From: Malania oleifera
Lineage: Eukaryota > Streptophyta > Magnoliopsida > Santalales > Ximeniaceae
NCBI RefSeq assembly: GCF_029873635.1
Contig: NC_080422.1
Location: 4,568,001 to 4,632,000 of the forward strand
Reading direction: 5' to 3'
DNA: 64,000 bases
Part shown: in pieces, positions 1-37,927 of the stretch
How the letters are laid out: every line of letters starts with the position of its first letter
How positions within the stretch are numbered: the first letter of the stretch is position 1
The notes under the pieces: model-generated
What the model was told of the DNA's origin: nothing
Seen by the model: the letters and a program-made list of their open reading frames with translations, nothing else
Databases searched by the model: none
Position numbers and translations under genes: made by a program

Positions 1-26
1 ATGGGATGAAAGGGGTATTTCACGGT

Positions 27-1170: not shown

Positions 1171-1178
1171 TTCACGGT

Positions 1179-3700: not shown

Positions 3701-3949
3701 TTTGTTATTATTGTGAAACCACAATATACTTTGGGCTAACTAGTTAAACAATAGTGCTATGACTAGTGCCACATGGCAGCCCTTCACAGGGTGTGAAGAG
3801 TTCAGCCTGTGACACTTGATGATGCCCTGCACTTAACTGAGTAAGAGTGGTCCCAAGCCAACTGACTTCACGATACCAGAAAAAAATTCCTCGTGCCACA
3901 ATCACTGCAACGGTCCTTGACTGCCAGCTCTGTTGCCTTTTTTTGGGGA

Positions 3950-4368
3950 CTGCAGGCAGTGGATCGCAACAAAAATTAACTCTTATATATGAAAACAAAT
4001 TAGGTGCCAACCACATGACACTTGAATTTACTGATTAACAATAAGGCATTCACACTCAACCTCAAAACAAACATGCTATTATATTATATACCCCACATTG
4101 AAAATGACACCCAACACTGTCATGCATACTCATATACGATACACCTCAGCCACTGCATGCACTTTTTTTCTCTCTCACAGCACAATCACACAAGAATTTC
4201 TTGCTCTCTTCCTTTGCACGGTTTCTTCTCTGTTGCGCAGCCTACACTGACTTCTCTTACACAACATACACTTGATTTTCTGAGCACAGCAATAATGCAG
4301 TCCTTCCCCTTTTATAGTTACTCAAAATTTTCTGGAATTTCCCATAGATGGCAGCAACAATTATGAAG

Positions 4369-4427
<59 letters not shown>

Positions 4428-4465
4428 ATCGTAAAGAGGGGGGAAATTTCTGTAGAGAGTTGGTC
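3950..4465 (-). mobile_element. Copia-type LTR fragment, copy 1
   Basis: This shares a long diverged similarity with 9190-9566, which is the LTR of the copia relic in intron 4, as shown there by the adjoining polypurine tract and RNase H end. Common words include AAAACAAATTAGGTGCC and GTCCTTCCCCTTT. It has no adjoining internal region, so it is a solo or truncated LTR. The homologous copy at 37490-37974 ends in TGTCAACA, about nine bases past the point where copy 1 is cut off. Confidence 0.6.
4371..4424. repeat. (GA)n microsatellite
   Basis: About 27 uninterrupted GA repeats inside the copia-type LTR fragment. The paralogous site at about 37893-37922 has a shorter tract, so this locus changed length after the segmental duplication. 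Reading frames through it are artefacts. Confidence 0.95.
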
Positions 4466-7407: not shown

Positions 7408-7707
7408 TTTTTTGATAAGGGAAGGAGAGGTCGAGATGGTTTGAGCACAAGCAATGTAGGCCAAATATTGTATTGGTGAGTAGGAGTGACCTAGTTATTG
7501 CTAGTAGCAATGTATTGGTGGGGAGGAGTGAACTAGATATTGTTAGTGGTAGAAGGGGTAGGAGTGAACCCAAAATAACTTGGAGTGAGATGGTAATAAC
7601 CGTCAAGTTGCCGGAGGCAATTGCCCAAGATTGTGTAAATTGGCGGAAAAGGATTCATGTAGCTAACCTTACCTAGTGGGAGTTAAGGTTTTTGTTTGTT
7701 GGTTTGT
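7408..7707 (+). mobile_element. 5'-truncated RTE-clade LINE (3' end only)
   Basis: The insert is bounded by a perfect 14-bp direct repeat ATGTATGATAACTT (7394-7407 and 7708-7721). Its sequence matches the last ~270 bases of the larger RTE copy at 13208-15926, including the coding end (GRRGRSEPKITW, CVNWRKRIHVANLT) and the G/T-rich tail. RTE elements lack a poly(A) tail and end in short T/G-rich repeats, as here. It sits in the putative 5' UTR intron of the PDCD2-like gene. Dead on arrival, as usual for truncated LINE copies. Confidence 0.85.
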
Positions 7708-7836
7708 ATGTATGATAACTTCTTAAAGATTTCTTGTCCTGTAAAATTCCTGTGCAGTGCACAGCTCTTCTGTAAAATAAAGGCCTTGCACTTAGTGTGT
7801 TTATGATTCCTGTTTTTGTTCAGCTAGAGTTAAGTG

Positions 7837-10800
7837 ATGGCTAAAGTTCTTCTAGGCATGCCAGGACCGTGGGCAATTGATAATAACGAAGCATCTGATC
7901 ATTATACAACAAAAATTGGTGGGCTTCCTGTAAGTTACTGCAAGTTATTTATTTAATTTTGGATTACACAAATAACTGCAAGTAATTTGCTAGCATATTG
8001 TTATAATGCTGTAAAGTGCACAATATCTGAATTCCTGTTTTATTTCTTCCTTGGCAGGACTGGCCGTCTCAAACTTTAGCGCTACGACCCGAGCTGCTTT
8101 GCAGTGAATGTCGAAGTAAACTTTGTCTTGTTGCACAGGTTTATGTTTGTCTTGTTGCACAGGTTTATGTTTTCAAAACCATTAATTCAGTACTTATGAC
8201 AACTGATTATTTCAAATGCAGATCACTGAAATCCCCCTTCTTCTTTAGGTTTATGCACCGATTTCAAGTGGCAGCCTGAAAATTGAAGAGCGTGTAATCT
8301 ACCTCTTTGGTTGTGTAATGCCAAAATGTGGAAGCAATCCCCTTAGGTCATTCCATAGTTCTTCTTTTGTCTTTTACTGTTTGAATGTTGGTGCTATTAT
8401 GGGAACTGTAACAATCATACTTTATGGACATTTCTGAGGACATGCAGCTGGCGGGTTCTTCGCATTCAGAAATTGAACAAAGAAAAAGTGTTGAACACCA
8501 CATGCCAGGAAGCTGCCTCTCCAGTTGTTTCTTCTGTTTCAATTTCAAACAGTAACTGGCGGGAAAATTTGTGGGCTGTCAACTCTACAGAAGAGGAAGA
8601 TGATGGAAATAATGATGTAGATATGGAGGAATTGGGTAGGGCACTGTTTGAGGCTGCAAGAATGGCTTCTGGCTCCAAGAAACATAATGGCAAACGGCAT
8701 CAAGAGAGCAATGTGAAACCTGCGTCCTTAAGCCAAGGAAAAAGATCTATTGATGTTAATGTGCCAGGTAAAATTTCCATTCCTTTGAAAGAAATTCTCA
8801 ACATAGTATTAGTCTTATGTGTTTTGTTACTTGCTTTTAAAACTTGTATTGGTGGTTGTTTAAAATTTGACTTTCGACTAGTGCAGGAGTGCATCTCATG
8901 ACAAAGTCAAGTTTTTATTTAATTCTTGATGTGATTTCTGAATCAAATGCCCAATTTACCTAACAAACCTAGAAACTAAAGTTTTTACTTGATTTTTTAA
9001 TGAACAACTAATAACTATAAAATAAAAGATGGAATAGGTGAGGATAAGAAAGAGATCATGCTGTTTTTGACTTGTGGCAGAGAATGGCAAATCTGTTGGC
9101 AATCTTTATAATGAGCAAATGGATAAGTAGTTAGGTGAAATCATAAAGTGATTAGGCCTTGTTATCATTGGGAATTGGAGGTGGTGAACCACAACCAAAA
9201 TTGACTCTTAATTATTTTGTGAAAACAAATTAGGTGCCCAACACCTTACACTTGGACTCACAATTAGACACTCATCCCAAACCTCTTAAAACACACGTGC
9301 GCAATAATATACCCCAGACTCACAATGACACCCAGCACTTTCACACTTACTCACGTATGACACATCACCACAAAAATCTTGCACTTCCTGCACACACTTT
9401 TCTCTTGCTCACAGCACACAAGACTTCTTCCTTTACACAGCACACACTTGGGTTTTTGCACACAGCAGCAATGGAGTCCTTCCCCTTTAATAATTGCTCT
9501 AAGTTTGGTTACCAATCAATTCAAATCTTCTAGAAAGAGAGAGTGTGTGTCAGTGCTCTGCCAACACTCCCTCTCAACAATTACTCTATCTCTATTCCTT
9601 TTTACAAGTCCTACCAAATTGCCTTTCGAATCCTTTGAATTTGACATCACGGAGTCCTTTAGTAAGTAGGTTTGCAACTTGGTCTTCAATCTTATGTGCT
9701 CCTATGCTCCATCTTCTTGAGTCATAGCTACATTTGTGTATTTGGAATTTGCTTTTTTTGTCTAATGACCTGCGAATTTGACGCTGAGGAGATTCTTCTT
9801 CTTCGAGCTGTTTTACTTGACTTTGTCTATCATCTTTTGTTCTAATGGACGTGTGAAGATGAGGTTATGGTAAATACTTGTTTGCCATGGACTTCTAGCT
9901 TTTTCTAGCGACTTTGCTCTTGATTTTTCTCTAGCTTGACCTTCCAAAGGTCCAGCTTCCTCAACTCTTTCCTAGCTTGGCTGGATATTGTCAATGTTTG
10001 CTCTTGCATTTTGTCTTGCAACTATTCCTCAATTTCCTTGGTGTTTGGAAGTAATGTTGCTTGTGATGACCACCATGATGATGCCTCATCGAACATTACA
10101 TTGTTAGAGATATAACAGCCAGTTGTGGGATCACAACATCTCCATTCCTTTGATTGTCATAACCCACAAATATGCAATGAATTGATTTCTTGTTGACTTG
10201 TTTCATAAATGATTTGGGTCAAATACATAGCACACGCAAACAAATACTCAAGGGTTTAATGTTCCACAACTTCTCAAAGGGTGAAATGGTTGCCAATTTT
10301 GCTTGAAATAGCCTATTAATTACATGTTCTACTATCTTCATGCACTTGGCCCAAAAACATGGTGGCGCATTCTTGGCATGTAGTATTCTACATATATATG
10401 CTAGACACTAGTTCTTTATTTTTGGTACTCCATTTTGTTTTGGTGTGTCTAGACAAGTCAGTTGTTGGGGTTTATTGCAGTTTTGCAAATATTCTAAGAA
10501 TTCATTTGATGTATGCTCTTCCCATTACTTGTGCATAGATATTGTATCTTCTAACCTGCTTCTTTTTCCACTATAATCTTGAATTCCTTAAATTTTCTTG
10601 TGCTTTTGATTTCTTTCATAAATTCAACATATACATACCAAGTCATCTATAACGGTTATCATGTATCAAAATCTGTTAGTGGACCCCTGTCTTGCTCTCC
10701 CAAATACGTTTGAGTGAATTAGTTCAAGAGGCTTCTTAGCTATTAACCTTGAATCCTCATATGCTAACTTGTGTGCTTTTCCATACTAGCATCCCATGCA

Positions 10801-13800
10801 CAGAATATCTTCTTGAACATCCATCTAAGGGAATTCTTTGAGCACGAACATCTTATCACGATATTTTTTTTGTTTGATAGGAAAAGAAAATCTCATTAAT
10901 AGGAAGTGAATTTACACGAGGGAGAATAAGACATCTCCCGAAAAAAGCTTGGAACACTTCTACATCACGATTTTGAGCTTGTGATGGCTTACATGTCCTA
11001 CTTGTGATCACTATCAATCTGCTGCCTCATTCTTTCTTGTTTTATCTACATTTGCTTCATGGGCTGAGATCGCGTATTTAGACTTGAACCTTCCTTCCTT
11101 CATGGTCGGTGCACCAATCGCTAGAAACTTTGGTACACCTTGACATCATTCAGGTCAAACTCCACATAATTCCCTAGAGTGGTGAGTTGTGATATTGTAG
11201 CAATTTTTTCTTCATTCCAAGAACATGCAACATATTTTGCAATTGCACTTGTTATGGCCTAAACCTTGGCACTATTACTATTTTGCCAATATGAGTTATT
11301 GGTTGTTTAGAGTTGTTGGTGGTCACTATTACTCACCCTCCTTTACATTGAGACACACTTTCTAATTTCTCTTCTTCAATCACGTGATTGGAATATCCAT
11401 AATGTATTATCCAATCACTATTATAATTAATTAGTTTATCATTTTCCATAATGAATGTTGATTCCTCCTTTAGTTTGATGAAGCAAAAAGTTGTGTGCTG
11501 TTCGTTGGACTTGCCCTTCGTTCCATCAAAGGATTCTTTGAGTTCCCATTCTTCTTTGTTCACTCTTACCCTGAATGAATGTTACAACATTCCCGTCTAC
11601 TTGTTTGTGCCAACAATCTTGAGCCATGTGTCCTCTCTTGCCATATTTATAACATTGGTTGTTTCCATTAATACTTCTTATCTTCATTTTCTTCTTAGTC
11701 TTGAATTTGTTCAGCTCCCCCTCATCAAGAGCTTCTCCCATCTGGATGCCAGCGTTTTTTCGTTGTTCTTGATTTTCCGTCCTTACCATTTATTCTTGTA
11801 TCTACTTTATCCTTCCTTTAAAGGTTTTCTTATCATAGGGCCTTTTCCTCATCCTTCACCAAAATTCCAGACATTTGTTTGTCCAAAGCCTTTTGATTGG
11901 CTAATATATTTCCAACTTTGTTAGAGTTGGTTCTTTATCCCTTCCATGAGTTGTGCTAATGAGACCATTATATTCCGGCCTGAGGTTTTGAATAATAGTT
12001 GTTGACACCAGATTTTGGTCCGTGGGATGTGCTGATGAATGGAATGTGTATGCATGGCGATCCCCCAAACAAGAAGGTCAAGCAGGGGTGGATAAGATTC
12101 TAAGAAGATACAAAAGATTGAAATTTGGAGTCGCCACCTTTACTATTTTTTTTGTTTAGGGAAAAAAAAAAGGAAAAAAAAAACCCTAAGTATGATATAG
12201 AGAGTAAGGGTATGGGAGTACATTTGTGTGTAGGGAATGTGGTGCACTAACCATCCTGCTTGTCAATCTGGGAATAAATGGGCTATTGAGTCAATTATTT
12301 AATGAGATTTAAAAATCATTGATTGTTAATCAGGGTTTTAATGGTTGATTGAGTCATCCTTTAACTAGGAGATTTCAAAATCTCCTGATTGCTAATCAAA
12401 GTTTTTTATGGTTGATTGAGTTGACTCTTTAATCAGGATTAGAAAATTATTGATTGTCAATAAGAGTTTTAATGGTTGATTGAGTCAAACCATAAATGGG
12501 AGATTTGAAAATCACCTGATCGCTGATCAAGGTTTTAATGGTTGATTGAGTAACGCTTTAATGTAGGATTTGAAAATCATTGATTGTCAATTAGGGTTTT
12601 AATGGTTAATTGAACCAACCCTTAAATAGGAGATTTGAAAATTTAATGGTTGTGAATTAAGTTTTAATGGTTGATTGAGTTAACTCTTTAATAGGATTTG
12701 AAAATCATTGATTGTCAATCAGGGTTTTAATGGTTGATCGAGTCAACCTTTAAATAGGAGATTAGAAAATTTCCGTATTGCCAATCAAGGTTTTAATAGT
12801 TCATTAACTCTTTAGTGGAGGATTTGGAAATCATTGATTGTTAATCAGAGTTTTAATGGTTGATCGAGTCAGCCCTTAAATAAGAGATTTAAAAATCTCC
12901 TGATTGCCAATTAAGGTTTTAATGGTTGATTGAGTCAACTCTTTAATGGAAGATTTGAGAATTATTGATTGTCAATTAGGTTTTTAATGGTTGATTGAGT
13001 CAATGTGAGATTTAAAAGTCTCCTAATTGACAATTAGGGTTTTTAGTCATGTTGTTTGAACTCTTGGACATTGATGCTTCACCGAATGGCCCAAAAGAGG
13101 GATCTTCTTTCTCGTAATAATTGATTGCCCAACCAAAGAGACTCAATCGACCATTTAAAACCCCTTATTGACAATAAATGATTTTCAAACATTTTATTTA
13201 AGGGTTGGTACACTAGAAAAGAAAAACATAAGAATGGAGTATGCATTATTATAGACAAAAACTTAAAAGATAGCGTTGTGGATGTAACTAGAGTAAGGGA
13301 TAGAATTATAAAAATTAAGATGGGACGAGGTAATAAATATCATTAGTGCTTATGCTCCTCAAGTTGGCTTAGTAGAAAATCTTAAGAGATAATTTTGGGA
13401 AGATATGGATAGTATCATACAAGACATACCAGGGACTGAGAAAATATTTATAGGAGGAGATCTGAATGGACACGTTGGAAGAGATAATAAAAATTATGAG
13501 AGGATGCATAGAGGATATGAATATGGAGACAAAAATGAGTCTGGGGAGATGATCTTAGACTTTGCTATGTCATATGATTTTAGTATAATGAATACTTGCT
13601 TTAAGAAGAGAGAAACACTTAATAACCTTTAAAAGTGGACAAAATAGAAATCAAATAGATTTTTTTTTAGCTAGGAGGGTAGATCGTTTATCATGCAAGG
13701 ATTGTAAAGTTATTCTAGGTGAAAGCCTAACCACACAACATAGAGTCTTAGTGTTAGATATATGTATTAAAAAATGGAAGAAAAAGGATAAAATAAACCA

Positions 13801-16800
13801 ATGTGGGAGAACTAGATGGTGGAACCTAAAAGGAGAAAATATAATAAAATTTAAAGATAAAATGATCAAAGATGGGGATTGGACCATAGAGGATGAGATA
13901 GATACCAATACTCTTTGGAATAGGTTAGCTAGCTTTATTAAAAAGATAGCAAAAGAGATTTTAGGTGAATCAAGGGGAAGATTCTCGAATAGCAAAGAGA
14001 GTTGGTGGTGGGATAAAGATGTACAAAAAATCATAAAGACAAAAAGAATTTGGTATAAAACATGGCAAAAAAGTAGAAACAGAGATAACTTTGAAAAATA
14101 TAAGGAGGCAAGAAAAGATGCAAAAAGGGCCATTAGTGAAGCTAAATATAGATCTTTTAATAGTTTGTATGATAGATTAGGTACAAAAGAAGGGGAAAGA
14201 GGTATATTTAAACTTGTTAAAGCTAGAGAAAGGAAGAGCAAGGACTTAGGAAATGTAAAATGTATAAAAAGTGAAGATGATATTGTCTTGGTTAAGGACG
14301 AAGATATTAAAGAAAGATGGCAAAGTTACTTTAGTAAGTTGTTTAACGAAAACCAAATAGAAGACTTAAACTTAGAATTGTCAAATGAGGAAAAGACTAA
14401 AAATATAAGATTTATTGCAAAATTAGAGTTAACGAAGTTGAGTTTGCTCTAAAAAAGATGAAAAATTGGAAAGCCATGGGACCAAATAACATCCCAATTG
14501 AAGTTTGGAAATGCTTGGGTGATAACGGAATTATATGGTTAACTAATTCATTTAATACAATTGTAAAAACTAAGAAAATGCCAGATGAATGGAGGAAAAA
14601 CACTTTAATACCTATATACAAAAATAAAGGAGATATTCAAAATTGTAATGACTATCGTGGAATTAAACTTATGAGTCATATGATGAAACTATGGGAAGAG
14701 GTAGTTGAACAAAGATTAAGGTTAGAAACGAAGATCTCAAAAAATCAATTTGGTTTTATGCCTGGGAGATCTACCACGGAAGCTATTTATCTTTTAAGAA
14801 GATTAATGGAAAAGTTCAGGGAAAAGAAGAGACACTTGCATATGATATTTATTAACCTTGAGAAAGCATATGATAGGATACCTAGGGAAGTTCTATGGTA
14901 GGTTTTAGGAAAAAAAGGTGTATGTTGTAGGTGTACGGATGTCATTAAGGATATGTACGATGGAGTAATGACTAGTGTAAGGACTATAGATGGAGAAACT
15001 AGAGAATTTTCAATTACCATAGGTGTACATCAAGGATCTGCTTTGAGTCCTTCTCTTTTTGCTTTAGTGATGGACCAATTGACTAGGAGTATTCAAAAGG
15101 AGGTTCCATGGTGTATGTTGTTTGCAGATGATATTGTATTAATTGATGAAACTAGGGACGGAGTAGAGGCTAAGTTAGAATTATGGAGAGAAGCTTTGGA
15201 ATTTAGATGCTTTAGGATAAGTAGAAATAAAACAGAATATATGAAATGTAATTTTAGTAATGATAGGAGGAATATTGGAGACAAAGTTAAACTTGATGAT
15301 GGAGAAATAAATAGCACTTATAAATTTCGATACCTTGGATCTATTATGCAAGATGAAGTAGAAATTGAAGATGATGTAATGCATAGAGTTAAAGCAGGCT
15401 GGGTAAAATGGAGAAGTGCTTCAAGTGTGCTATGTGATCGTAGAATACCCTTAAAATTGAAAGGGAAGTTTTATAGGATAGCTATAAGATCAGCTATGCT
15501 ATATGGATCGGAATGTTGGGCGACGAAGAAACATAATATCTAAAAAGTAAAAGTTGCCGAGATGAGAATGCTTAGATGGATGAGTGGTATAACATTGAAA
15601 GATAAATTAAGGAATGAACATATTTGTGGTAAGTTAGGTGTAGCTCTTATAGAAGATAAGATAAGAGAGGGACGACTCAGATGGTATGGACACTTGCAAT
15701 GTAGGCCACATAGTGCACCTGTGAGGAAGAGTGATTTAGTTACTGTGGGGGGCAGTAGAAGGGGGAGGGGTAGACCTAAAATAACTTGGGAGGAGATAGT
15801 GAGCAAGGATTTAATATCCTTGAATCTATCAAAAGAAATGGTCCATGATCGCATAAATTGGCGGAAAAAGATTCATATAGCCGACCCCACTTAGTGGGAC
15901 TAAGGCTTGGTTTTGTTGTTGTTATTATTTAAGGGTTGACTCAATCAGCCATTAAAATCTTGATTGACAATCAATGATTTTTAAATCCTCCATTAAAAGG
16001 TTGACTCAGTTAGCTAGTAAATTCAAATATCCTATTTAAAGGTTGACTCGATCAACCATTAAGACCCTAATTGAGAATCAATAATTTTCAAAGCCTCCAT
16101 TAAAGAGTTGACTCAATCAACCATTAAAACCTTGATTGACAACTAAGAGATTTTCAAATCTCATTGATTGCCAATTGGGGTTTTAATGGTTAATTGAACC
16201 AACCATTAAATAGGAGATTTGAAAATCTCATGATTGTGAATTAGGTTTTAATGGTTGATTGAGCCAACCTTTTAATGAAGGATTTGAAAATCATTGATTG
16301 TCAATTAGGGTTTTAATGGTTGATCGAGTCAATCCTTAAATAGTAGATTTAAAAATTTCCTTATTGCCAATCAAGGTTTTAATAGTTGATTCACTCTTTA
16401 GTAGAGGATTTGGAAATCATTGATTATCAATCAGAGTTTAAATGGTTGATCATGTCAACCCTTAAATAAGAAATTTAAAAATCTCCTGATTGCCAATTAA
16501 GGTTTTGATGGTTGATTGAGTCAACTCTTTGATGGAAGATTTAAAAATTATTGATTGTGAATTAGGTTTTTAATGGTTAATTGAGTCAATCCTTAAATGA
16601 GAGATTTAAAAATCTCCTGATTGACAATTAGGGTTTTTAGTCATGTTGTTTGAACTCTTAGACATTGATGCTTCACCGAATGGCCCAAAAGAGGGACCTT
16701 CTTTCTCGTAATAATTGATTGTCCAACCAAAGAGACTTAATCGACCATTTAAAACCCCTTATTGACAATAAATGATTTTCAAACTTTTTATTTAAGGGTT

Positions 16801-19800
16801 GACTCAATTAACTATTAAAATCCTAATTGACAATCAATGATTTTCAAATCCTCCATTAAAAGGTTGACTCAATCAACTAGTAAATTCAAATATCCTATTT
16901 AAAGGTTGACTCGATCAACCATTAAAACCATGATTGAGAATCAATAATTTTCAAAGCCTCCATTAAAGAGTTGACTTAATCAACCATTAAAACCTTGATT
17001 GACAATTAAGAGATTTTCAAATCTCATTGATTGTCAATTAGAGTTTTAATGGTTAATTGAACCAACCCTTAAATAAGAGATTTGAAAATCTCATGGTTAT
17101 GAATTAGGTTTTAATGCTTGATTGAGTAAACTCTTTAATAGGATTTGAAAATCATTGATTGTCAATTAGGATTTTAATAGTTGATCGAGTCAACCCATAA
17201 ATAGGAGATTTGAAAATTTCCTTATTGTCAATCAAGGTTTTAATAGTCGATTAACTTTTTAGTGGAGGATTTGGAAATTATTAATTGTCAATCATAGTTT
17301 TAATGGTTGATCGAGCCAATCCTTAAATAAGAGATTTAAAAGTCTCTTGATTGCCAATTAATGTTTTAATGGTTGATCGAGTCAACTCTTTGATGGAAGA
17401 TTTACAAATTATTAATTGTCAATTAGATTTTTAATGGTTGACTAAGTCAATCCTTAAATGAGAGATTTAAAAATCTCCTGATTAACAATTAGGGTTTTTA
17501 GTCATGTTGTTTGAACTCTTGGACATTGATGCTTCATTGAATGGCCCAAAAGAGGGACCTTCTTTCTCCTAATAATTGATTGCCCAATCAAAGAGACTCA
17601 ATCAACCATTTAAAACCCCTTATTGACAACAAATGGTTTTCAAATTTTTAATTTAAGGGTTGGTTCAATCAACCATTAAAACCCTGATTGACAATTAATT
17701 ATTTTCAAATTCTCTATTAAAAGGTTGGCTCAATTAGCCAGTAAATTCAAATCTCCTATTTAAAGCATGACTCGATCAACCATGAAAATCCTGATTAAGA
17801 ATCAATAATTTTCAAAACCTCCATTAAAGAATTGATTCAATCAACCATTAAAACCTTGATTGACAATTAGGAGATTTTCAAACCTCATTGATTGACAATT
17901 AGGGTTTTAATGGTTAATTGAACCAACCCTTAAATAGGAGATTTGAAAATCTCATGGTTGTGAATAAGGTTTTAATGGTTGATTGAGTTAACTCTTTAAT
18001 AGGATTTGAAATCATTGATTGTCAATCAGGATTTTAATGATTGATCGAGTCAACCCTTAAATAGGAGATTTGAAAATTCCTTATTGCCAATTAATGTTTT
18101 AATGGTTGATTGAGTCAGCTCTTTAATGGAAGATTTGAAAATTATTGATTGTCAATTAGGTTTTTAATGGTTGATTGAGTCAATCCTTAAAATGAGAGAT
18201 TTAAAAATCTCCTGATTGACAATTAGGGTTTTTAGTCATGTTGTTTGAACTTTTGGACATTGATGCTTCACTAAATGGCCCAAAAGAGGGACATTCTTTC
18301 TCCTAATAATTGATTGCCCAACCAAAGAGACTCAATCGACCATGTAAAGCCCCTTATTGGCAATAAATGATTTTCAAACTTTTTATTTAAGGGTTGGCTC
18401 AATCAACCATTAAAACCCTGATTGACAATCAATGATTTTCAAATCCTCCATTAAAAGGTTGACTCAATCAGCCAGTAAAACCTTGATTGACAATTAGAAG
18501 ATTTTCAAATCTCCTATTTAAAGGTTTACTTGATCAACCTTGATTAAGAATCAATGATTTTCAAAGCCTCTATTAAAGACTTGACTCAATCAATTATTAA
18601 AACCTTGATTGACAATTAGGTGACTTTCAAATCTTCTATTTAAGGGTTGACTTGATAAACTATTAAAACCTTGATTAACAATTAACGATTTTTAAATCCG
18701 ATTAAAGAGTTGACTCAATCAACCATTAAAACCTTGATTGACAATTTGGAGATCTTCAAATCTCTTATTTAAGGGTTGACTCAACCAATAATGAAAACTC
18801 CGATTGACAATCGATGATTTTTAAATCCTTTATTAACGAGTTGACTCAATCAACCATTAAAACCTTGATTAACAATCAATTTTTTTTTAAATTTTCCATT
18901 TAAGGGTTGACTCAATTGATCATTAAAACTCTGATTGACTATCAATGATTTTCAAATCTCATTAAAGAGTTGACTTAATAGCCCCTTAAAACCTTGATCG
19001 ACAATCAGGAGATTTTCAAATCTCCCATACAAGGGTTGACTCCAATCATTGAAACCCTTATTGTCAATCAGGAGATTTTTAAACCTTCATCAATTGTTGA
19101 CTTTAATGATATTTAAACCCTGATCGCCAATGAAGAGACTTTTAAAATTCATTAATAATTAGTTGCCTTCAACCTCCATTAAAATCTGATGTCAATTAGG
19201 AGATTCTTAACGCCGTCAACATTGAACTATTTAACTTCAATCATGGGACTGGGACCATAATTTCTATTGATTTAAAACTCAATCAATAATCTTATGCACC
19301 CCATCTAGCTTTTAATTTAAGTAAGATATTTTGATGTTGACTTTTCTCCAATCCTAACTTTCAAAGGAAAGGATTATCTTTGAATTTACTCGTTGCAATC
19401 AATCAAAACCTTTATCCGATGTTTCTCTTTCTACTTTACATTTTCAAATTTTAGGGTTATCTGAGTCCAAACCCCCCTTTTTCCGACAAAATTATATCAG
19501 GGTTTTTAACCTTGTTGTTTGAACTCTTGGATAGTGATGCTTCACTGAATAACCTAATAGGGGAACCTTATCTCTCCTAATAATTGATTGCCTAACCAAA
19601 GAGACTTGACCCATCATTTAAAACTCCTGATTGACAATCAATGATTTTCAAATCCTCCATTAAAAAGTTGACTCAATAAAAAATCATTAAAACCTTGATT
19701 AGCAATCAGAAGATTTTAAAATTTTTTATTTAAGGGTTGGCTCCATCAATTATTAAAATCCTGAATGAGAATCAATGTTTTTCAAATTCTCCATTGAAGA

Positions 19801-22800
19801 ATTGATTCAATCGACTATTAAAACCTTGAATAACAATCAAGAGATTTTCAAATCTCATATTTAAGGGTTGATTCAATCTATCATTAAAAAGTTAATTGAT
19901 AATCAATGATTTTCAAATCCTCCACTAAATAGTTGATTCAATCAACCATTAAAACTTTGAATGACAATGAGGAGATTTTCAAATCTCTTATTTAAGGGTT
20001 GACTCGATCAATTATTAAAATCCTAATTGTCAATCAATGATTTTCAGATCCTTCATTAAAGAGTTGATCCAATCAACCATTAAAACCTTAATTGACAATC
20101 AAGAGATTTTCAAATTTCCTATTTAAGGGTTAATTCGATAAATCATTAAAACTCTAATTGACAATCAATGATTTTTAAATCCTGTTACAGGTTGACTCAA
20201 TCAACCATTAAAACCTTGATTGACAATTAGGAGATTTTCAAATCTCCTTTTTAAGCGTTGACTCAATCAATTATTAAAACCCTGATTGACAATCAATGAT
20301 TTTCAAATTCTCCATTAAAGAAGTTGACTTGGTCAACCATTAAAATCTTGATTAATAATTAGGAGATTTTCAAAATCTCCCATTTAAGGGTTGACTCAAT
20401 CAACCACTAAACCCCTGACTAACGATTAATGATTTTCAAGTCCCATTAAAAAGTTGACTCAATAGCCCATTAAGAGTCTAATTGACAATTAGGAGATTTT
20501 TAAATCTTCTTGTAAGGGTTGACTCAATCATTAAAATCCTAATTTTTAAACCTTTATCATTGATTGACTTCAACCACATTTAAGCCCTGATTGCCAATTA
20601 AGAGACTTTTCAAATTCATTAATAATTGGTTGACTTCAACCCTCCATTAAAACCTGATGCCAATCAAATAATTTTCAATCCCGTCAACAATGAACTCTCT
20701 AACTTCAATCATGGGATTGGGACCACAATATTCATTAATTCAAAACTCAATCAATAATCTCATGCACCTTATTCAACTTTTGATTAAAGTAAGATATTTT
20801 GACGTTGACTTTTCTGCAATCCTAACTTTCAAAGGAAAGGATCATCTTTGAATTTACTTGTGGCAATCAATCAAAAACCTTTTTCCATCGTTTCTTCTTT
20901 TAACTTTATGTTTTCAAAATTTAGGGTTATCTGAGGCCAACCCCTCCTTTCCAAGAAGATCATTTTTGGGTTTTCAACTCTATTGTTTGGACTCTTGGAT
21001 AGTGATGCTTCACTAAATGACCCAAAAGGGGGACCTTCTTTCTTTTCTTCTTTATTCTTAGTTAGGACACACACACAGAGTGGTAACCGTTCTTAGGGTG
21101 GGTGTTGGTTGACTAATCCCCCTTAGAATGGTTAGTCTACCAGCTTATTTACACACAAATGTACTCTCGAACCCTTATTCTTTATATCGTAGGTCTCTTA
21201 GGGTTTTTACCTTTATTGTTTTTAAACAAAAATAATAATAAAGGTGGCGACTTCGCATTTCAATCTTTTCTATCTTCTTAGAGTCTTATCCACGCATGCT
21301 TGACCTTTTTGTTTGGGGGATCGCCATGCATACATATTCCATTATTCGACACATCCCTCAGACTAGAATCTATTGTCGACAACTTGATTGGTTGATGAAA
21401 CGTTTCGTCGTCCATGTCTGCTAGGTGATTGTCGAATGTCCTATGTAAGGGCTGGCCTTAATCATTAAAATCCTGATTATCAATTAGGAGATTTTAAACC
21501 TTCATCAGTGATTGACTTTAACCACATTTAAAACCCTAATTGGCAATCAAGAGATTTTCAAATCTCCCATGATTGTTTAGAAAAAGGTGTTAATTTCTTA
21601 ATTTAAATTTGCTTGCTTATTGAAAATCTCCCGATTGACATCAGGTTTTTGTGGAGGGCTGAAGCCAATCAATTATTAATGAATTTGAAAAGTCCTTTAA
21701 TTGGCAATCAGAGTTTAAATGTGATTGAAGTTAATCATTGATGAATGTTTGAAAATTTCCTGGTTGACAATCAAGGTTTTAATGATTGAGGTCAACCCTT
21801 ACATAGGAGATTTGAAAATCTCCTGATTGTCAATTAGGGTTTTAATGGACTAACGGGACTTGAAAAAATTGATTGTCAATTAGGATTTTAATGGTTAATT
21901 GAGTCATCCCTTAAATGAGATATTTGAAACTCTCCTGTTTCCTAATCAAAGTTTTAATGGTTGATTAAGCCAACCTTTAAATAGGAGATTTGCAAATCTC
22001 TTGATTACTAATCAAGTTTTAATGATTGATTAAGTCAACTATTTAATGGAGGACTTGAAAATCATTGATTGTCAATCATGGTTTAATGGTTGATCGAGTC
22101 AACTCTTAAATAGGGAATTTAAAAATCTCCTGATTGTCAATTAAGGTTTTAATGGTTGATTGAATCAACACTTTAGTGGAGGATTTGAAGATCATTGATT
22201 GTCAATCAGGGTTTTAATTGTTGATTGAGTCAACCCTTAAATGAGAGATTTGAAAATTTTCTAATTATCAATCAAGGTTTTAATGGTTGATTGAGTCAAC
22301 TCTTTAATGGAGGATTTGAAAATTCATTGATTGCCAATCTAGTTTTTAATGGTTGATCGAGTCAACCCTTAAATTGGAGATTTGAAAATTTCTTAATTGC
22401 TAATCAATGTTTTAATGGTTTTTTGATTAAGTCAACTCTTTAATGGAGGATTTGAAAATTATTTATTGTTAATCAAGGTTTTAATGATTGATTAGTGAAC
22501 CCTTAAATAGGAAAATTGAAAATCATTGATTGTCTATCAGGTTTGACTCGATCAACCATTAAAAACTGGATTGACAATCAATGATTTTTCAAATCTTCCA
22601 TTAAAGAGTTATCTCAATCGACCATTAAAACCTTGATTGTTAATTAGAAGATTTTCAAATCTCCCATTTAAGGGTTGACTCAATCAACAATTAAAACCTT
22701 GATTGACAATCAATGATCTTCAAATCCTCCACTAAAGTGTTGACTCAATCAACCATTAAAACCTTGATTGACAATCAGGAGATTTTTAAATTCCTTATTT

Positions 22801-25800
22801 AAGGGTTGATTCGATCAACCATTAAACCATGATTGACAATCAATGATTTTCAAATCCTCCATTAAAGAGTTGACTTAATCAACCATTAAAACTTGATTAG
22901 TAATCAAGAGATTTGCAAATCTCCTATTCAAAGATTTGCTCAATCAACCATTAAAACTTTGATTAGGAAACAGGAGAGTTTCAAATCTCCCATTTAAGGA
23001 TCGACTCAATTAACCATTAAAATCCTATATGACAATCAATTTTTTCAAGTCCCATTAGCCCATTAAAACCCTAATTGACAATCAAGAGATTTTCAAATCT
23101 CCCACATAAGGGTTGACTTAAATCATTAAAACCTTGATTGTCAACCAGGAGATTTTCAAACATTCATCAATGATTAACTTCGACCACATTTAAACTCTGA
23201 TTGCCAATTAAAAGACTTTTCAAATTCATTAATAATTGATTGACTGCAGCCCTCCATAAAATCCTGATGTCAATTAGGAGATTTTCAATAAGCAAGAAAA
23301 TTTAAATTAAGAAAATAACACCTTTTTTCCAAACAATCATGGGAGACTTGAAAATCTCTTGATTGCTAGTCAGGGTTTTAAATGTGGTTAATGTCCATCA
23401 CTGATGAATGTTTAAAATCTCCTAATTGATAATCAGAGTTTTAATGATTGAGGTCAGCCCTTACATAGGAGATTTGACAATCTCCTGGTAGACATGGACG
23501 GAGAAACGTTTCATCAACCAATCAAGTTATTGACACTAGATTCTAGTTTGGGGGATGTGCCAAAGAATGAAATGTGTATGCATGGCGATCCCCCAAACAA
23601 AAAGTTCAAGCATGGGTAGATAAAACTCTAAGAAGATAGAAAAGGGTGAAATGTGAAGTCGCCACCTTTATTATTATTTTTGTTTAGGAACAATAAAGGT
23701 AAAAACTCTAAGAGGCCTACGACACAATGAATAAGGGTTCGGGAGTACATTTGTGTGTAGATAAGCTGGTAGACTAAACATTCTAAGGGGGATTAGTCAA
23801 CCAACACCCACCCTAAGAACGGTTACTGCTCTGTGTGTGTGTCTCCTAACTAAGAAGAAAAGAAAGTAGGTCCCCCTTTTGGGTTATTCAGTGAAGCATC
23901 ACTGTCCAAGAGTCCAAACAATAGAGTTGAAAACCCAAAAATGCTCTTCTTGGAAAGGGGGGGTTGGCCTCAGATAACCCTAAATTTTGAAAACATAAAA
24001 TTAAAAGAAGAAACGATGGAAAAAAGTTTTGATTGATTGCCATGAGTAAATTCAAAGATGATCCTTTCCTTTGAAAGTTAGGGTTGGAGAAAAGTCAATT
24101 TCAGAATATCTTACTTTAATCAAAAGTTGGATGAAGTGCATGAGATTATTGATTGAGTGTTGAATTCATGGATATTGTGGTCCCAATTCCATGATTGAAG
24201 TTAGAGAGTTCAATGTTGACGGGATTGAAAATCTTCTGATTGGCATAAGGTTTTAATGGAGGGTTGAAGTCAACCAATTATTAATGAATTTGAAAAGTCT
24301 CTTAATTTGCAATCAGGGTTTAAATGTGGTTGAAGTCAATCATTGATAAAAGTTTAAAAATTAGGGTTTTAATGATTGAGTCAACCCTTACAAGAAGATT
24401 TGAAAATCTCCTAATTGTCAATTAGACTTTTAATAGGCTATTGAGTCAACTCTTTAATGGGATTTGAAAATCATTAATCGTTAATCAGGGGTTTAGTGGT
24501 TGATTGAGTCAACCCTTAAATGGGAGATTTTGAAAATCTCCTAATTATTAATCAAGGTTTTAATGCTTGACGAAGTCAACTTCTTTAATGGAGAATTTGA
24601 AAATCATTGATTGTCAATTAGAGTTTTAATGATTGATTGAGTCAACGCTTAAAAAGGAGATTTGAAAATCTCCTAATTGCCAATTAAGGTTTTAATGGTT
24701 GATTGAGTCAACCTTTAACAGGATTTAAAAATCATTGATTGTCAATCAAAGTTTTAATGGTTTATCGAATTAACCCTTAAATAGGAAATTTGAAAATCTC
24801 TTGATTGTCAATCAAGGTTTTAATGGTTGATTGGGTTAACTCTTTATTGAAGGATCTGAAAATCATTGATTGACAATTTGGATTTTAATAATTGATCGAG
24901 TCAACCCTTAAAATAAGAGATTTGCAAATCTTGTGATTGTCAATCAAAGTTTTAATGGTTGATTGAGTCAATTATTTAGTGGAGGATTTGAAAATCATTG
25001 ATTATAAATTAAGTTTTTAATGATTGATTAAGTCAACCCTTAAATGTGAGATTTGAAATTTTCTTGATTGCTATTCAACGTTTTAATGGTTGATTGAATC
25101 AGTTCTTTAATGGAGGATTTGAAAAACATTGATTGTCAATCAGGATTTTAGTGATTGATGGAGCCAACCCTTAAATAAAAAATTTTAAAATCTCCTGATT
25201 GCTAATCAAGGTTTTAATGGTTAATTGAGTTAACTCTTTAATGGGATTTAAAAATTACTGATTGTCAATCAATGTTCTAATGGTTGAGAGAGTTAACCCT
25301 TAAATGGGAGATTTAAAAATCTCTTGATTCTCAATAAATGTTTCAATGGTTGATTCAGTCAACTCTTTAATGGAGGATTTGAAAATCATTGATTGTCAAT
25401 TAGGGTTTTAATTGTTAATTAAGTCAATTCTTAAAATCTCCTAATTGTCAATCAAACTTTTAATGGTTGATTGACTCAACTCTTTAATGGAGAATTTGAA
25501 AAATCATTGATTGTCAATTCAGGTTTTAATTGTTGATCGAGTCAACCCTTAAATTGGAGAGTTGAAAATCTCGTGATTGCCAATCAAGGTTTTAATGATT
25601 TTTTATTTAACTCTTTAATGGAGGATTTGAAAATCATTGATTGTCAATCAAGGGTTTTAAATGATGGGTCAAGTCTCTTTGGTTGGGCAATCAATTATTA
25701 GGAGAGATAATGTTCCCCTTTTAGGTTATTCAGTGAAGCATCACTATCCAAGAGTCCAAACAACAGGGTTAAAAATCTTGATATAATCTTGTCGGAAAAG

Positions 25801-28800
25801 GGGGGGGTTTGGTCTCACATAACCCTAAATTTTGAAAATGTAAAGTAGAAAGAGAAACAATGGATAAAAGTTTTGATTGATTGTAACGAGTAAATTCAAA
25901 GATAACCTTTCCTTTGAAGGTTAGGATTGGGGAAAAGTCAACATCAAAATATCTTACTTAAATTAAAAGTTAGATGGGGTGCATAAGAATATTGATTGAG
26001 TTTTGAATCAATAGAAATTGTGGTCCCAGTCCCATGATTGAAGTTAAATAGTTCAATGCTGACAGGTTGAGAATATCTTGATTGACATAAGATTTTAATG
26101 GAGGTTGAAGGCAACTAATTATTAATGAATTTTAAAAGTCTCTTCATTGGCGATCAGAGTTTAAATATCATTGAAGTCAATAATTGATGAAGGTTTAAAA
26201 ATCTTCTGATTGATAATAAGGGTTTTAATGATTGAAGTCAACCCTTATATGGGAGATTTGAAAATCTCCTGATTGTCAATGAGGATTTTAATGGGCTATT
26301 GAGTCAACTCTTTAATGGGATTTGAAAATCATTGATAGTCAATCAAAGTATTAATGATCAATTGAGTCAACCCTTAAATGGAAAATTTAAAAATCTTTTG
26401 ATTGCTAATCAAAGTTTTAATGGTTGATTGAGTCAACTCTTTAATGAAGGATTTGAAAATCATTGATTATTAATCAGGGTTTTCATGATTGGTTGAGCCA
26501 ACCCTTAAATAGGAGATTTGAAGATTTCCTAATTGCCAATCAAGGTTTTAATGATTGATTGAGTCAACTCCTTAATCGGATTTAAAAATTATTAATTGTT
26601 AATCAAGGTTTTAATAGTTTATTGAGTCAACCCTTAAATAGGAGATTTGAAAGTCACCTAATTGTCCATCAAGGTTTTAATGATTGATTGAGTCAACTCT
26701 TTAATAGAGGCTTTGAAAGTCATTGATTCTTAATCATGGTTTTAATGGTTGTTCGAGTCAACCTTTAAATAGGAGATTTGAAAATATTATGATTGTCAAT
26801 CAAGGTTTTACTGGCTGATTGAGTCAATCTTTTAATAGAGGATTTGAAAATCATTGATTGTCAATTAGGGTTTTAATGGTTGATTGAGTCAACCCTTAAA
26901 TAAAAAGTTTGAAAATCATTTATTGTCAATAAGGGGTTTTAAATGGTCGATTGAGTCTCTTTGGTTGGACAATCAATTATTAGGAGAAAGAAGGTCCCTC
27001 TTTTGGGCCATTCGGTGAAGCATCAATGTCTAAGAGTTCAAACAACATGACTAAAAACCCTAATTGTCAATCAGGAGATTTTTAAATTTCTCATTTAAGG
27101 ATTGACTCAATCAACCATTAAAAACCTAATTGACAATCTATAATTTTCAAATCTTCCATCAAAGAGTTGACTCAATCAACCATCAAAACTTTAATTGGCA
27201 ATCAGGAGATTTTTAAATTTCTTATTTAATGGTTGACTCGATCAACCATTAAAACTCTGATTGACAATCAATGATTTCCAAATCCTCCTCTAAAGAGTGA
27301 ATCAACTATTAAAACCTTGATTGGCAATAAGGAAATTTTCAAATCTACTATTTAAGGGTTGACTCGATCAACCATTAAAACCCTAATTGACAATCAATGA
27401 TTTTCAAATCCTTCATTAAAAGGTTGCCTCAATCAACCATTAAAACCTAATTCACAATCATGAGATTTTCAAATCTCCTATTTAAGGGTTGGTTCAATTA
27501 ACCATTAAAACCCCAATTGACAATCAATGAGATTTGAAAATCTCTTAGTTGTCAATCAAGGTTTTAATGGTTGATTGAGTCAACTCTTTAGTGGAGACTT
27601 TGAAATTATTGATTCTCAATAAGGGTTTTAATGGTTGATCGAGTCAACATTTAAATAGGATATTTGAATTTAGTGGATGATTGAGTCGACTTTTTAATGG
27701 AGAATTTGAAAATCATTGATTGTCAATAAGGGTTTTAACGGTTGATTGAGCCAAACCTTAAATAAAAAAATTTGAAAAAAATTAATTATTTCAATAAGGG
27801 TTTTTAAATGGTCGATTGAGTCTCTTTGGTTGGGCAATTAATTATTTGGAGAAAGAAGGTCCCACTTTTGGGCCATTCAGTGAAGCATCAATGTCCAAGA
27901 ATTCAAACAACATGACTTAAAACCCTAATTGTTAATTAGGAGATATTTAAATCTCTCATTTAAGGATTGATTCATTCAACTATTAAAAACCTAATTGATA
28001 ATCAATAATTTTTAAATCTTCCATTAAAGAGTTGACTCAATCAACCATTAAAATCTTAATTGACAATCAGGAGATTTTTAAATCTTTTGTTTAAGGGTTG
28101 ACTCGATCAACCATTAAAACTCTGATTGACAATCAATGATTGACATTAAGTTTTAATGGAGGGTTGAAGTCAACCAATTATTAACGAATTTGAAAAGTCT
28201 TTTAATTGGCAATCGATGTTTAAATGTGGTTGAAGTCAATCATTGATGAAGGTTTAAAAATCTCCTAATTGATAATTGGAGTTTTAATGATTGAGGTTAA
28301 CCCTTACATGGGAGATTTGAAAATCTCCTGATTGTCAATTAAGGTTTTAATGGGCTATTGAGTCAACTCTTTAATGAGATTTGAAAATCATTGATTTTTA
28401 ATTAGAGTTTTAGTGATTAATTGAGTCAACCCTTGAATAGGAGATTTAAAAATCTCAAAATTGCTGATCAAGGTTTTAATGGTTTGATTAAGTCAACTCT
28501 TTAATGCAGGATTTGAAAATCATTGATTGTCAATTAGGGTTTTAATGGTTGATTGAGCCAACGCTTAAATAGGAGATTTGAAAATCTCTTGATTGTCAGT
28601 TAGGGTTTTAATAAGCTATTGAGTCGGCTCTTTAATGAGATTTGAAAATCACTGATTGCCAATTAGGGCTTTAGTGATTGATTGAGTCAACCCTTAAAGA
28701 GGAGATTTGAAAATCTTCTGATTGTTGTTGAAGGTTTTAACGGTTGATTGAGTCAACCCTTTAATGGAGGATTTGAAAATCATTGATTGTCAATTAAGAT

Positions 28801-31800
28801 TTTAATGGTTGATTGAGTCAACCCTTAAATAGGAGATTTGAAAGTTATTGATTCTTAAAATGGGGTTTTAAATGGTGGATCGAGTCTATTTGGTTGGGCA
28901 ATCAATTATCATGAGAGGGAGATTTTTGACTTTTGAAAAAGGGAAAGTTTCATTTGGAATATGGTACTTGATAGGGAGGTTTTTTTTTTTTTTTTCCCTA
29001 AAATCTACTAAATTCATCATTGTTCAAAGAAAGAGCCAATTCCAATGGTCTTTTGAGGAGGGGAATTCCAAATTTGTCCTAAGAATCTTGGTCCTATGGT
29101 GCAAGCATCGACTCTTGCTTACCCATGCGGGCTTAAGGGAGAGTGCTTTTCCTTGCCTTGGGTTGAGAAGGAAGAGGTCACCATACGGTGAGATCTCCCT
29201 TATCACCCCATTAATAGCCGAGTTGAAAAATTCAGAGGCCCACATGGGGATGACTAAGATGAATTAACTTAGCGTAAGAGCCAATTGAATCTACTAATCA
29301 TCAATCACACAAACACTCAAATCATACTTAAGCCATGCAAAAAAATACCATCAATGTGTACCTTGGTTACATTCGAGCTTTAATGAGGCCTTAAACCCCA
29401 CATGAATGAGAGATCTTCCCAAATCAAACAAGAATCATTAATTCTGAATACAACCCAAGCCATCAAAATAAGAAGCCTTATCAAGGGCTTATTATCTTTC
29501 CTAGCCATCTCTTTTTCATGCATTCATGAAGATCAAATGAGCATCAAATTAGAAAAAAATCAAGAAGATAAAAGTGATTTTTATAAGAGAAACAATGAAA
29601 AATAAGCACGCAAATTTAAATTAAGAAATTAACACCCTTTTTCCAAACATTCGTATAAGAAATTAAAAGAGGACTCAATAAGACTAGTCCTAAGGAGATG
29701 GAAGAAAATCATTAAGGCAAATAAATTGCATTCTAAATGATCCAAACAAAGGAAGCCATCAAAACCAGCCCAAAGGGGTAGTTTGCATGGGCTGATTGGG
29801 CCTTCCTTCTCACCATGCTAGTGTTTCACGTGAAACCCTAGCCGCCACCCAAACAATGGCCGAGAGAACTCAGCTGCTGCCGCAGGCAAACCACAGCCCC
29901 ACAGCTTCCTTCTTCACCTTCTACTCACACACATTCACGGCTAGGGTTTCCAGCTCATAACCCCTTTTTACCTTTTATTTGCCATGAGCAACAGCTAAAA
30001 AAACCAATTGCAGCAGCTGCAACTTGCAGGTGCTGCTACAATTGCTAATCCTTTACACACTACCTCACGTGCACGGCTAGGGTTTTAATTAAAACCCTAG
30101 CAGCCAGCTGTTGCACACACCTACGTACTCTCATAGCTAATACCCATACCCCCCATCACGTCATCCTCCTTGAAGTAGACCAATAGCCGAAGCTGGGTCG
30201 TAGCCCCCTCAACTTGCAGCCTCAACAACCTCTTTGCTGCTGCTGTGTGCCTCAAACCTGAACTAGAACAGCACAACTATTGCTGCTGCTGTCAAACCAT
30301 GCTGGGGCCAAACTCTAGAAACTGATAAGCCATGCATATTGCGTGCGTGTGAGTGAGTGAATGAAAGGGTGCGTGTGTGTTTGATCAAAAGGGGCACAAC
30401 CATGGATGCCTATTCATGGAGCTTCACTAAAGAGATTAAAAAAAGATAATATGAATACATATTAAAAAAAAAGGGGTACAAGACGATAGGAAGCTTACCT
30501 TGATGAGTTCCTTGAAGTTTCACCGATAACTTCAAGAATGCGTAGCCTCCTCTCCTTCCTTTCTTTCCTCTCTCTTGTTTTCTCCTCTCTTGGTTGTGCC
30601 TCTCCTCCTCTTTTCTTGTGTACTTCATCTTAGGTTGGCCATGCAAGGCCCCCTAGGGTTCGTGAGTTCTTTTTTTCTCCCTCCCCTCTCTTTTCTCTCA
30701 CCTTTTTATTTTTATGTCTTGACCCCTTTTTTCAATTATGTGGCAGTACAAGACCCCATTTCTTATATTCTCTCTCTCTCTCTCTCTCTCTCTTTTCTTT
30801 TTTTACGTACGCTCTCTTCCCCCTCCCCCCTTGTTCTGTGCTCTCCCCTAGCTCCCCTTCCTATTTATAGGCAAGAAGGAGCTAGGGCTTCTCTTAAAAA
30901 TCTGAAGGATAGTTACTTCCTTACCCTTTAGAACCCTTGGGAGTGCTTATGAAGCCCTGTAGGCCCAACAGGGGCCCATTTAACCTGAATAAAAATCCTT
31001 CTGACCTTCAATGAGGCTTCGAGAAGCCCCGAGCCATAGTTAAAGCCCCCTTAAGCATCTCTTAAGCCCGCTAATTACTGTAAAAGACCCCTGGATCAAA
31101 ATTGGGCATAGACAGTTGTCCCTCTTTGACTAATGTCTTCGTATGAAGGCATTAGATAAAGAAAAAAGTGTGCCATTTTGACCAACCAAAGCCAAGCAAA
31201 ACCACAAGCAAGTAAGGATGTGTCACTCATAAGGATCTGCGACCTATGTTGAATGAAACAAGAATATAATAGCCTAGATGAAGGTAAACTCAAAAAACTA
31301 AAAGTGTGTGAAATTGGGAGCCATTACATGTGCTAGGGTGAGACACACATAAAAAAATTGGAAGACAGGAGCCATTACATGCGCTTGGGCAAGATTCTAT
31401 GTGCAGAAAGTGTGAAAATGGAAGCTATTATATGCGTCGAGGCGAGATCCGTGTGAAAAAACTGGAAGTTAGGAGCCATTACATGCACTCGGGCAAGACC
31501 TAGTATAAAAATCTTGAGATCAGGAGCCATTATATGCAGTTGGGCAAGACCTTATGTACAAAAGTGTGTGAAAGCAAGAGTCATTACTTGTGCTAGGACT
31601 AGACTTGTGTGAAAAAAAACTGGAAGCCAAGAGTCATTACATCCGCTTGGGCAAGACCTAGTATAAAAATCTAGAAATGGGAAGCCATTACATGCACTTG
31701 GGCAAGACTCGGCGTGTAAAAAGTGTGGAAGCAAGAGCCTTTACATGCGCTAAGGCAAGACTTGTGTGTGAAAATTGGAAATCTTGAGCCATTGCATGCG

Positions 31801-37800: not shown

Positions 37801-37886
37801 CAGCAATAATGGAGTCCTTCCCCTTTTGTAGTTACTCAAAATTTTCTAGAATTTCCCATAGATGGCAGCAACAATTATGAAGTTTT

Positions 37887-37927
<41 letters not shown>

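Follow-up and report, generated by a model that had tools for sequence, protein, structure and literature searches.

A palindromic minisatellite block in Malania oleifera as the probable left terminal repeat of a foldback-type transposon

A window of 64,000 nucleotides from Malania oleifera (assembly GCF_029873635.1, contig NC_080422.1, positions 4,568,001-4,632,000 of the forward strand; all coordinates below are those of this window) carries a PDCD2-like gene with an inferred intron of 29,516 bp (8768-38283, + strand). Between 12.2 and 28.9 kb, the DNA consists mostly of units of about 65 bp whose orientation alternates, as evident from a dot plot, a tandem-repeat scan and self-alignment. 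An initial annotation had described this block as a giant palindrome of minisatellite arrays inside an intron. We examined it by the methods just named and by global alignment, BLAST, nhmmer, Pfam, Rfam and RNA folding, all applied within the window, such that the evidence base is one locus and one sequence. In the most probable reading of the results, the block is a greatly enlarged terminal repeat, the left one of a foldback-type transposon (12000-36331). This old and apparently non-autonomous element would have inserted into the relic of a Copia retrotransposon and would now sit in the 29.5-kb intron.

The intronic block and its palindrome

The donor site (CCAG/GTAAAA at 8768) and the acceptor site (TTCATTGCAG/TGGTC, ending at 38283) of the inferred intron preserve the reading frame, and the translated window points to exons of a PDCD2-like gene at 7837, ~8060, 8249, 8448, 38284 and 39034. 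The joined protein matches the Pfam family PDCD2_C (E=2.4e-18, residues 255-318), and this match lies entirely in the two exons to the right of the intron. The left exons presumably belong to the same gene, as judged from the splice sites, the frame and the known sequence of plant PDCD2-like proteins. For the coding piece that opens the gene, Pfam yields DUF4113 alone, below the cut-off, and a sequence search of PDB with the encoded protein returns no useful match (best E=0.91). From these sequence features, the block probably lies inside an intron of the PDCD2-like gene. In the same gene, 24 bp are repeated perfectly in tandem (2.1 copies, 8122-8172) across a likely exon end and donor, so that CAG/GTTTATG stands twice and two in-frame donor sites are on offer.

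Self-comparison of the block reveals the anti-diagonal expected of a palindrome. The top inverted self-alignment pairs 15928-25271 with 28698-19628 (79% over 9538 columns), while the second-best (16734-20678 with 28754-24597, 80%) reaches less than half of its score, and other array registers align too. When the left side is globally aligned with the reverse-complemented right side, the clean parts of the two arms (18100-22395 on the + strand and 22508-27185 on the - strand) are 93% identical, with 298 mismatches in 4285 columns and a Kimura two-parameter distance (K2P) of 0.0735. Identity is 91-96% in 16 of the 18 windows of 250 columns that span 17885-22395, and 89.6% in the remaining two. 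Besides mismatches, the arms differ by gaps of 127, 183 and 191 bp, and the right arm carries ~0.37 kb more array than the left. A central spacer of ~112 bp of array (22396-22507) separates them and places the centre at ~22453 (near 22460 in the initial annotation).

The extent of the symmetry was assessed with 59 windows of 160 bp, each matched against 11900-29300. The mirror partner is the top match in all 32 consecutive windows that start between 18148 and 22209, but not in the last two, at the centre. Farther out, the top match is inverted in eight and direct in nine of the 17 windows at 15921-18017, and inverted in two and direct in six of the eight windows at 12261-13178. The palindrome is therefore borne out by both alignment and mirror matches, but it does not extend to 12001 and 29270 as had been proposed; these positions instead lie near the two edges of the left terminal repeat of the putative transposon. 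Outside ~18.1 kb on the left and ~27.2 kb on the right, higher-order repeats of 863 bp pair with one another as a mosaic, and the best-scoring partner of 26902-27585 is 16106-16789 (95-99%) instead of its positional mirror.

Four pairs of anchors that had been offered in support of the palindrome do fall on the mirror line, with sums of 44903, 45277, 45286 and 45417 (at most 2 off the alignment sums), and the spacings quoted for them (1273 against 1282, 734 against 865) are correct. They are not single-copy, however, as all eight points belong to one 79-bp stretch (M79) of a module, M, that also forms the ends of the putative transposon. The block contains 10 copies of M79, six on the + strand left of the centre and four on the - strand right of it. 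A BLAST search with the M of the simple copy at 2100-2840 matches 35602-36342, 20671-21382, 24239-23527 and 12254-11999, as well as several truncated copies. Two of these matches are full-length modules whose termini point towards the centre: M in the left arm (20671-21382, + strand, 79% identical to copy-1 M) and M' in the right arm (23527-24239, - strand). These inner modules had been recognized as a pair within limits that were too short; BLAST aligns 20721-21392 with 24182-23517 at 91%. Beside the inner M ends lies a filler of ~38 bp (21383-21421 and 23490-23526), which contains GAAACGTTTC and has no good match elsewhere in the window.

The 65-bp unit yields 196 nhmmer matches in the window at E<1, of which 173 lie within 12254-28886. 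Many units are organized into higher-order repeats of ~863 bp with the order M79, X30, F array and R array. Three such repeats (L1-L3, 16209-18301, + strand) and a partial copy (L0, 12560-13207) occupy the left side at ~12.6-13.2, 16.2, 17.1 and 17.9 kb, and two (R1 and R2, 26834-28141, - strand) occupy the right side at 27.0 and 27.9 kb. The closest relative of R1 is L1 (96.6% over 649 columns), whereas its positional mirror, L3, matches at 90.5% in the alignment of higher-order copies and at 93-96% in windows of the global alignment. Such a sequence pattern indicates loss, gain or conversion of units at about the time of the inverted duplication or later.

The junctions between these components recur at fixed places. 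Six copies of the R-array/M79 junction join unit position 18-20 to M position ~301; the M79-to-X30 junction is found at seven places by BLAST, and the R2 copy looks alike in alignment; and the F-to-R turns of four higher-order copies have one common breakpoint, with 92-96% identity over 53 bp. Because the breakpoints are common to the copies, each of these junctions appears to have arisen once and then multiplied. Three other turns, located at 21.57/23.3 kb, in the centre and near 28.14 kb, differ from the shared breakpoint. At the first of these, an F-to-R turn, a ~50-bp piece of the element's central region is present at 21571-21621 (- strand, mirror copy ~23287-23338). This captured piece is inverted in both arms, and it is 92.3% identical over 52 bp to 29601-29652 and 93.1% identical over 58 columns between arms. 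Its sequence suggests that a template switch occurred locally, not long before the palindrome was made, as its divergence from the source resembles that between the arms; a source elsewhere in the genome is also possible.

Ends, flanks and interior of the putative transposon

The proposed element spans 24,332 bp (12000-36331) and has the termini TGTTGACAC...GTGTCAACA. On the + strand of the window, TGTTGACAC occurs once, at 12000, and GTGTCAACA occurs twice, ending at 36331 and, in a duplicate described below, at 2829. The pentamer ATAGT borders both ends (11995-11999 and 36332-36336, + strand) as a target-site duplication; identity between 5-mers arose by chance in 0.2% of 200,000 random pairs drawn from the window. 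Once one ATAGT is removed, a minus-strand frame remains open across the joined flanks. Because of the termini, the ATAGT on both sides and the one frame across the joined flanks, we read 12000-36331 as a single insertion. The inverted terminal sequences with a target-site duplication are those of a foldback-type terminal inverted repeat transposon, and the long terminal repeats are built from tandem subrepeats, as in foldback elements, with 65-bp units in both.

Each terminal repeat runs from an end module M through an array of 65-bp units to an inner module X, and this order is mirrored between 12000-29210 and 33509-36331. The left repeat (12000-29210, 17.2 kb) is the block of the initial annotation, which was right about the palindrome and probably right about the PDCD2-like intron, but which missed that the block appears to be one end of a 24.3-kb transposon. 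Its arrays are bracketed by M' (12000-12257), which corresponds only to M positions 479-731, and by X (28886-29210, + strand, inner edge approximate). The right repeat (33509-36331) comprises X', an F array and M (35602-36331, + strand), and it measures ~1.7 kb when a hAT-like element that splits X' is excluded. The outer M' aligns to the right M with a local score of 125, as compared with 16.1 +/- 2.7 (maximum 27.5) for 200 shuffles, and the two differ by a K2P of 0.2554. The X module has inverted BLAST matches to 1482-1172 (67%) and 34984-34677 (66%), and its homology tails off past CCCA on both sides.

Both flanks resemble a Copia relic on the - strand. The left flank (9601-11999) carries, as judged by eye, the C-terminal part of gag and integrase-like pieces; Pfam matches here are below the cut-off (zf-CCHC_5, E=0.028; zf-CCHC, E=0.098; SH3_retrovirus, E=0.0077), and six further scans, made with partly overlapping pieces of this flank, matched no family. 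The right flank (36337-36760, end approximate) carries the N-terminal part of gag, with a Retrotran_gag_2 match above the cut-off (E=1.1e-7). We take the two flanks to be halves of one gag, as judged by eye from the frame and from known gag sequence.

Two other delimitations were considered and dropped after inspection by eye. A stand-alone element at ~11999-29212 with an AATAG/TAATAG duplication was set aside, given that 12000/36331 with ATAGT keeps one flank frame. A pair of tandem elements (12000-21382 and 23527-36331) has no matching duplications.

Between the terminal repeats lies a central region of 4.3 kb (29211-33508). Pfam scans covered 12 selected pieces of the element, a part of its open frames, and no transposase was recognized in them. 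The central region includes a 51/156-bp tandem repeat (31310-32188), where the - strand holds a long open frame that has no Pfam match above the cut-off.

The element itself hosts later arrivals. An apparently 5'-truncated long interspersed nuclear element (LINE) occupies 13208-15924 (+ strand), with a 14-bp duplication (TTATTTAAGGGTTG), a TTG-rich tail and reverse-transcriptase open reading frames that match RVT_1 in Pfam (E=2.3e-12 and 8.5e-15). A LINE 3' remnant that is 70-75% identical to it lies at 7414-7712, a short way upstream of 7837, where the coding sequence of the PDCD2-like gene probably starts. The hAT-like element inside X' (33533-34675) has an 8-bp duplication (TTCACGGT) and is so labelled from its duplication length and end pattern, with no protein match.

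The right end also exists in duplicate. Positions 1-4465 are a direct copy of 33507-37967 by self-alignment (96.5%; 114 mismatches in 4442 columns, K2P 0.0261), and this 4.46-kb duplication, whose left limit is beyond the window, contains the right end of the transposon, the hAT-like element and the Copia flank. The shared sequence identifies 1-4465 as a segmental copy of the right end and not as an independent insertion. One copy is located upstream of the PDCD2-like gene, and the other at the end of the intron. The two were also considered as a pair of long terminal repeats (LTRs) of a retrotransposon; by eye there are no LTR-like ends at 4465 or 37967, and the right member is made up of the transposon end and its Copia flank. 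The string TTGGTATCAAGAGCC at 3299-3313 on the + strand resembles a Copia primer-binding site, whereas the adjoining gag relic reads on the - strand. Elsewhere in the window, an exon at 46385-46861 encodes part of a SINA-type E3 ubiquitin ligase (Sina_ZnF, E=1.9e-30).

Alternative origins of the block

Several observations weigh against a single foldback-type insertion. Two stops are located a few codons upstream of the flank junction, and Pfam exceeds its cut-off for the right-flank half of gag only, since the left junction piece matches no family. The two end modules are merely 74-79% alike and hence were not necessarily equal at insertion. Nothing above the Pfam cut-off, whether transposase, gag or pol, appears in the 12 pieces of the element. 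The window offers a single insertion, and 1-4465, being its duplicate, does not supply a second independent copy with the same ends. Nor does such an insertion account for the ~38-bp filler beside the inner M ends. Finally, a nested second element may have supplied the inner M and M', which are about equidistant from both outer ends (K2P 0.18-0.21).

This last point leads to an origin of the palindrome by transposition, wherein a second copy of the family, located inside the array of the first, would have undergone reversed-end or sister-strand transposition to yield facing ends and duplicated flanks. The full-length M ends at 21382 and 23527 do face each other over 2.1 kb with the same flank, and the inner M is about equally distant from the outer M' and the right M. 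However, neither inner end has, by eye, a 5-bp flank in common with another end, and the mirror symmetry continues far past the inner ends on both sides, unlike what a simple nested insertion would leave. We consider such an origin unlikely.

The element might instead derive from an LTR retrotransposon, with M, the array and X together constituting an LTR, two copies of which came to lie in inverted order through integration or rearrangement, and with the array representing a hypervariable tandem repeat of the Tat/Ogre type. TG...CA termini and a 5-bp duplication are the customary marks of LTR elements, and TGTTG...CAACA termini with a 5-bp duplication are present here; likewise, the homology of X tails off past ...CCCA on both sides. 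A part of M may resemble plant LTR sequences. Plant LTR elements of the Tat lineage are described with such arrays (PMC7004042). Against this derivation, the terminal modules are inverted and not direct, and the 12 element pieces scanned with Pfam contain no gag or pol family. In addition, no primer-binding site was seen by eye, without comparison to tRNAs: on the left there is no TGG in the first 10 nt past X, and on the right a TGG starts 9 nt past the X edge. An LTR derivation is, on balance, quite improbable. There is a similarly slim chance that inverted foldback ends combined with LTR integration marks denote an unrecognized superfamily that uses a retroviral-type integrase, or an inverted LTR pair; in either case, repeated fold-back copying would enlarge the minisatellite arm, which would supply long intronic duplex RNA.

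Another proposal is that the block is a functional intronic hairpin, maintained by selection to produce small RNAs that regulate family copies or the gene. Sense RNA of 20400-24550 (4151 nt) is predicted to fold with a minimum free energy of -3054.6 kcal/mol, as compared with -957.1 for one dinucleotide shuffle; only this 4.15-kb part and a single shuffled control were folded. Of 1950 predicted pairs, 1903 cross the centre and 1873 are in the mirror register, so a hairpin is predicted from this segment if it is transcribed. The differences between the arms are also rich in transitions (transition/transversion ratio 2.27, versus 1.19 in the 4.46-kb duplication), which is compatible with methylated cytosines. 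However, the hAT-like element within that duplication is transition-rich as well (4.6), and CpG depletion scarcely exceeds that of the genic portion of the window (0.30 versus 0.36), such that substitution pattern and CpG content provide, at most, a weak methylation signal. The arms have diverged by indels and by repeats lost or gained, and an Rfam scan of the intron finds no family at gathering score. Maintenance of the hairpin by selection thus seems highly improbable.

An assembly artefact, wherein a read was folded back on itself, is scarcely credible: such arrays are generally hard to assemble, but an artefactual fold-back would be near-identical, and the 7% divergence between the arms (298 of 4285 columns), together with gaps of 127, 183 and 191 bp, lessens this concern.

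Related elements and proposed history

Long inverted repeats composed of subrepeats characterize FB of Drosophila melanogaster and FARE of plants, and the element described here has them too. Its nearest known counterparts are Tetris and Galileo of Drosophila. In the excerpted account of Tetris from Drosophila virilis, a non-coding middle is enclosed by terminal repeats, each of which comprises a flanking domain, tandem repeats and an inner domain, and arrays expand within the element to as many as 66 copies of ~220 bp (PMC4079207). The M. oleifera element is similar in terminal-repeat layout, in growth within the element to satellite-like blocks and in total size. It differs by its 5-bp duplication, 65-bp units and 17.2-kb arm, as compared with duplications of 8-10 bp and terminal repeats of at most 1,735 bp in complete Tetris copies, and that excerpt, which also mentions FB and an Arabidopsis foldback element, speaks of no palindromic expansion such as that of the arm here (PMC4079207). 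Galileo, a P-superfamily element of Drosophila mojavensis, is described in the portion of text available as enlarging its terminal repeats by tandem repeats and recruited internal sequence (PMC3573991). Growth through internal tandem repeats and neighbouring internal sequence is likewise seen here; however, the longest Galileo repeats are ~1.26 kb, its P-family transposase is known, and the same portion mentions no nested palindrome (PMC3573991).

Most foldback elements are tied to the Mutator superfamily, according to the Tetris excerpt (PMC4079207). The element differs from Mutator in that its target-site duplication is 5 bp (at most 6 when the terminal A is counted) and not 8-11 bp. Among the 12 selected element pieces, Pfam found no Mutator-like transposase above the cut-off; non-autonomous Mutator copies lack transposase anyway. 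The element also lacks the 8-bp duplication of hAT elements, and the 3-bp duplication and CACTA ends of CACTA elements. Like Tat/Ogre retrotransposons, it is a plant mobile element whose short tandem repeats are able to grow into long arrays (PMC7004042); unlike them, it has neither direct LTRs nor coding domains in the 12 pieces scanned. In plants, endogenous small-RNA loci with long inverted repeats have kilobase arms that form long duplex RNA. The present locus shares the kilobase arms, but here they are minisatellite arrays inside a putative transposon, and their duplex is a predicted one.

The structural features tested are those of a foldback element, but the palindromic arm, 5-bp duplication and TG...CA ends are unusual. 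A search of the open-access literature found no plant foldback element with a palindromic arm of this size, which is no proof of absence from print, and a search on the end motif and AGTCGCCACC found nothing relevant. One exact pattern of the 65-bp unit had 0 matches in viral contigs, a collection unsuited to the question.

For a foldback-type transposon at this locus, distances rank the outer M' versus M (K2P 0.2554) as older than the palindrome arms (0.0735), which are older than the 4.46-kb duplication (0.0261). This ranking and the event order presuppose roughly clock-like change, and the terminal modules may have differed already at insertion. The transposon would first have jumped into the Copia relic, whereupon its left array could have grown by unequal exchange. 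Recombination between M and X may then have created the M79-X30 junction and tandem repeats, and a strand or template switch may have joined F and R arrays into the 863-bp unit that was amplified. The palindrome might have formed when, after breakage or fork stalling, the arm was copied back on itself over ~5 kb. A local template switch, comparable to the recruitment of internal sequence in Galileo, may have trapped part of the central region at one turn. The LINE would have landed in the left half. We infer this order and mechanism of the duplications from the sequence.

Today, the locus is most likely inert and merely resident in the intron. If pre-mRNA crosses the block, however, it could fold into the predicted imperfect duplex of kilobase length, a possible substrate for Dicer-like enzymes that could direct local methylation. 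The value of this locus is that its junctions can be traced, such that a single site may record how, within a gene, a foldback terminal repeat of less than 2 kb became a palindromic block of 17 kb that resembles a satellite. If transcribed, it would also provide a natural intronic hairpin of kilobase length with which to test how plants splice and silence such introns.

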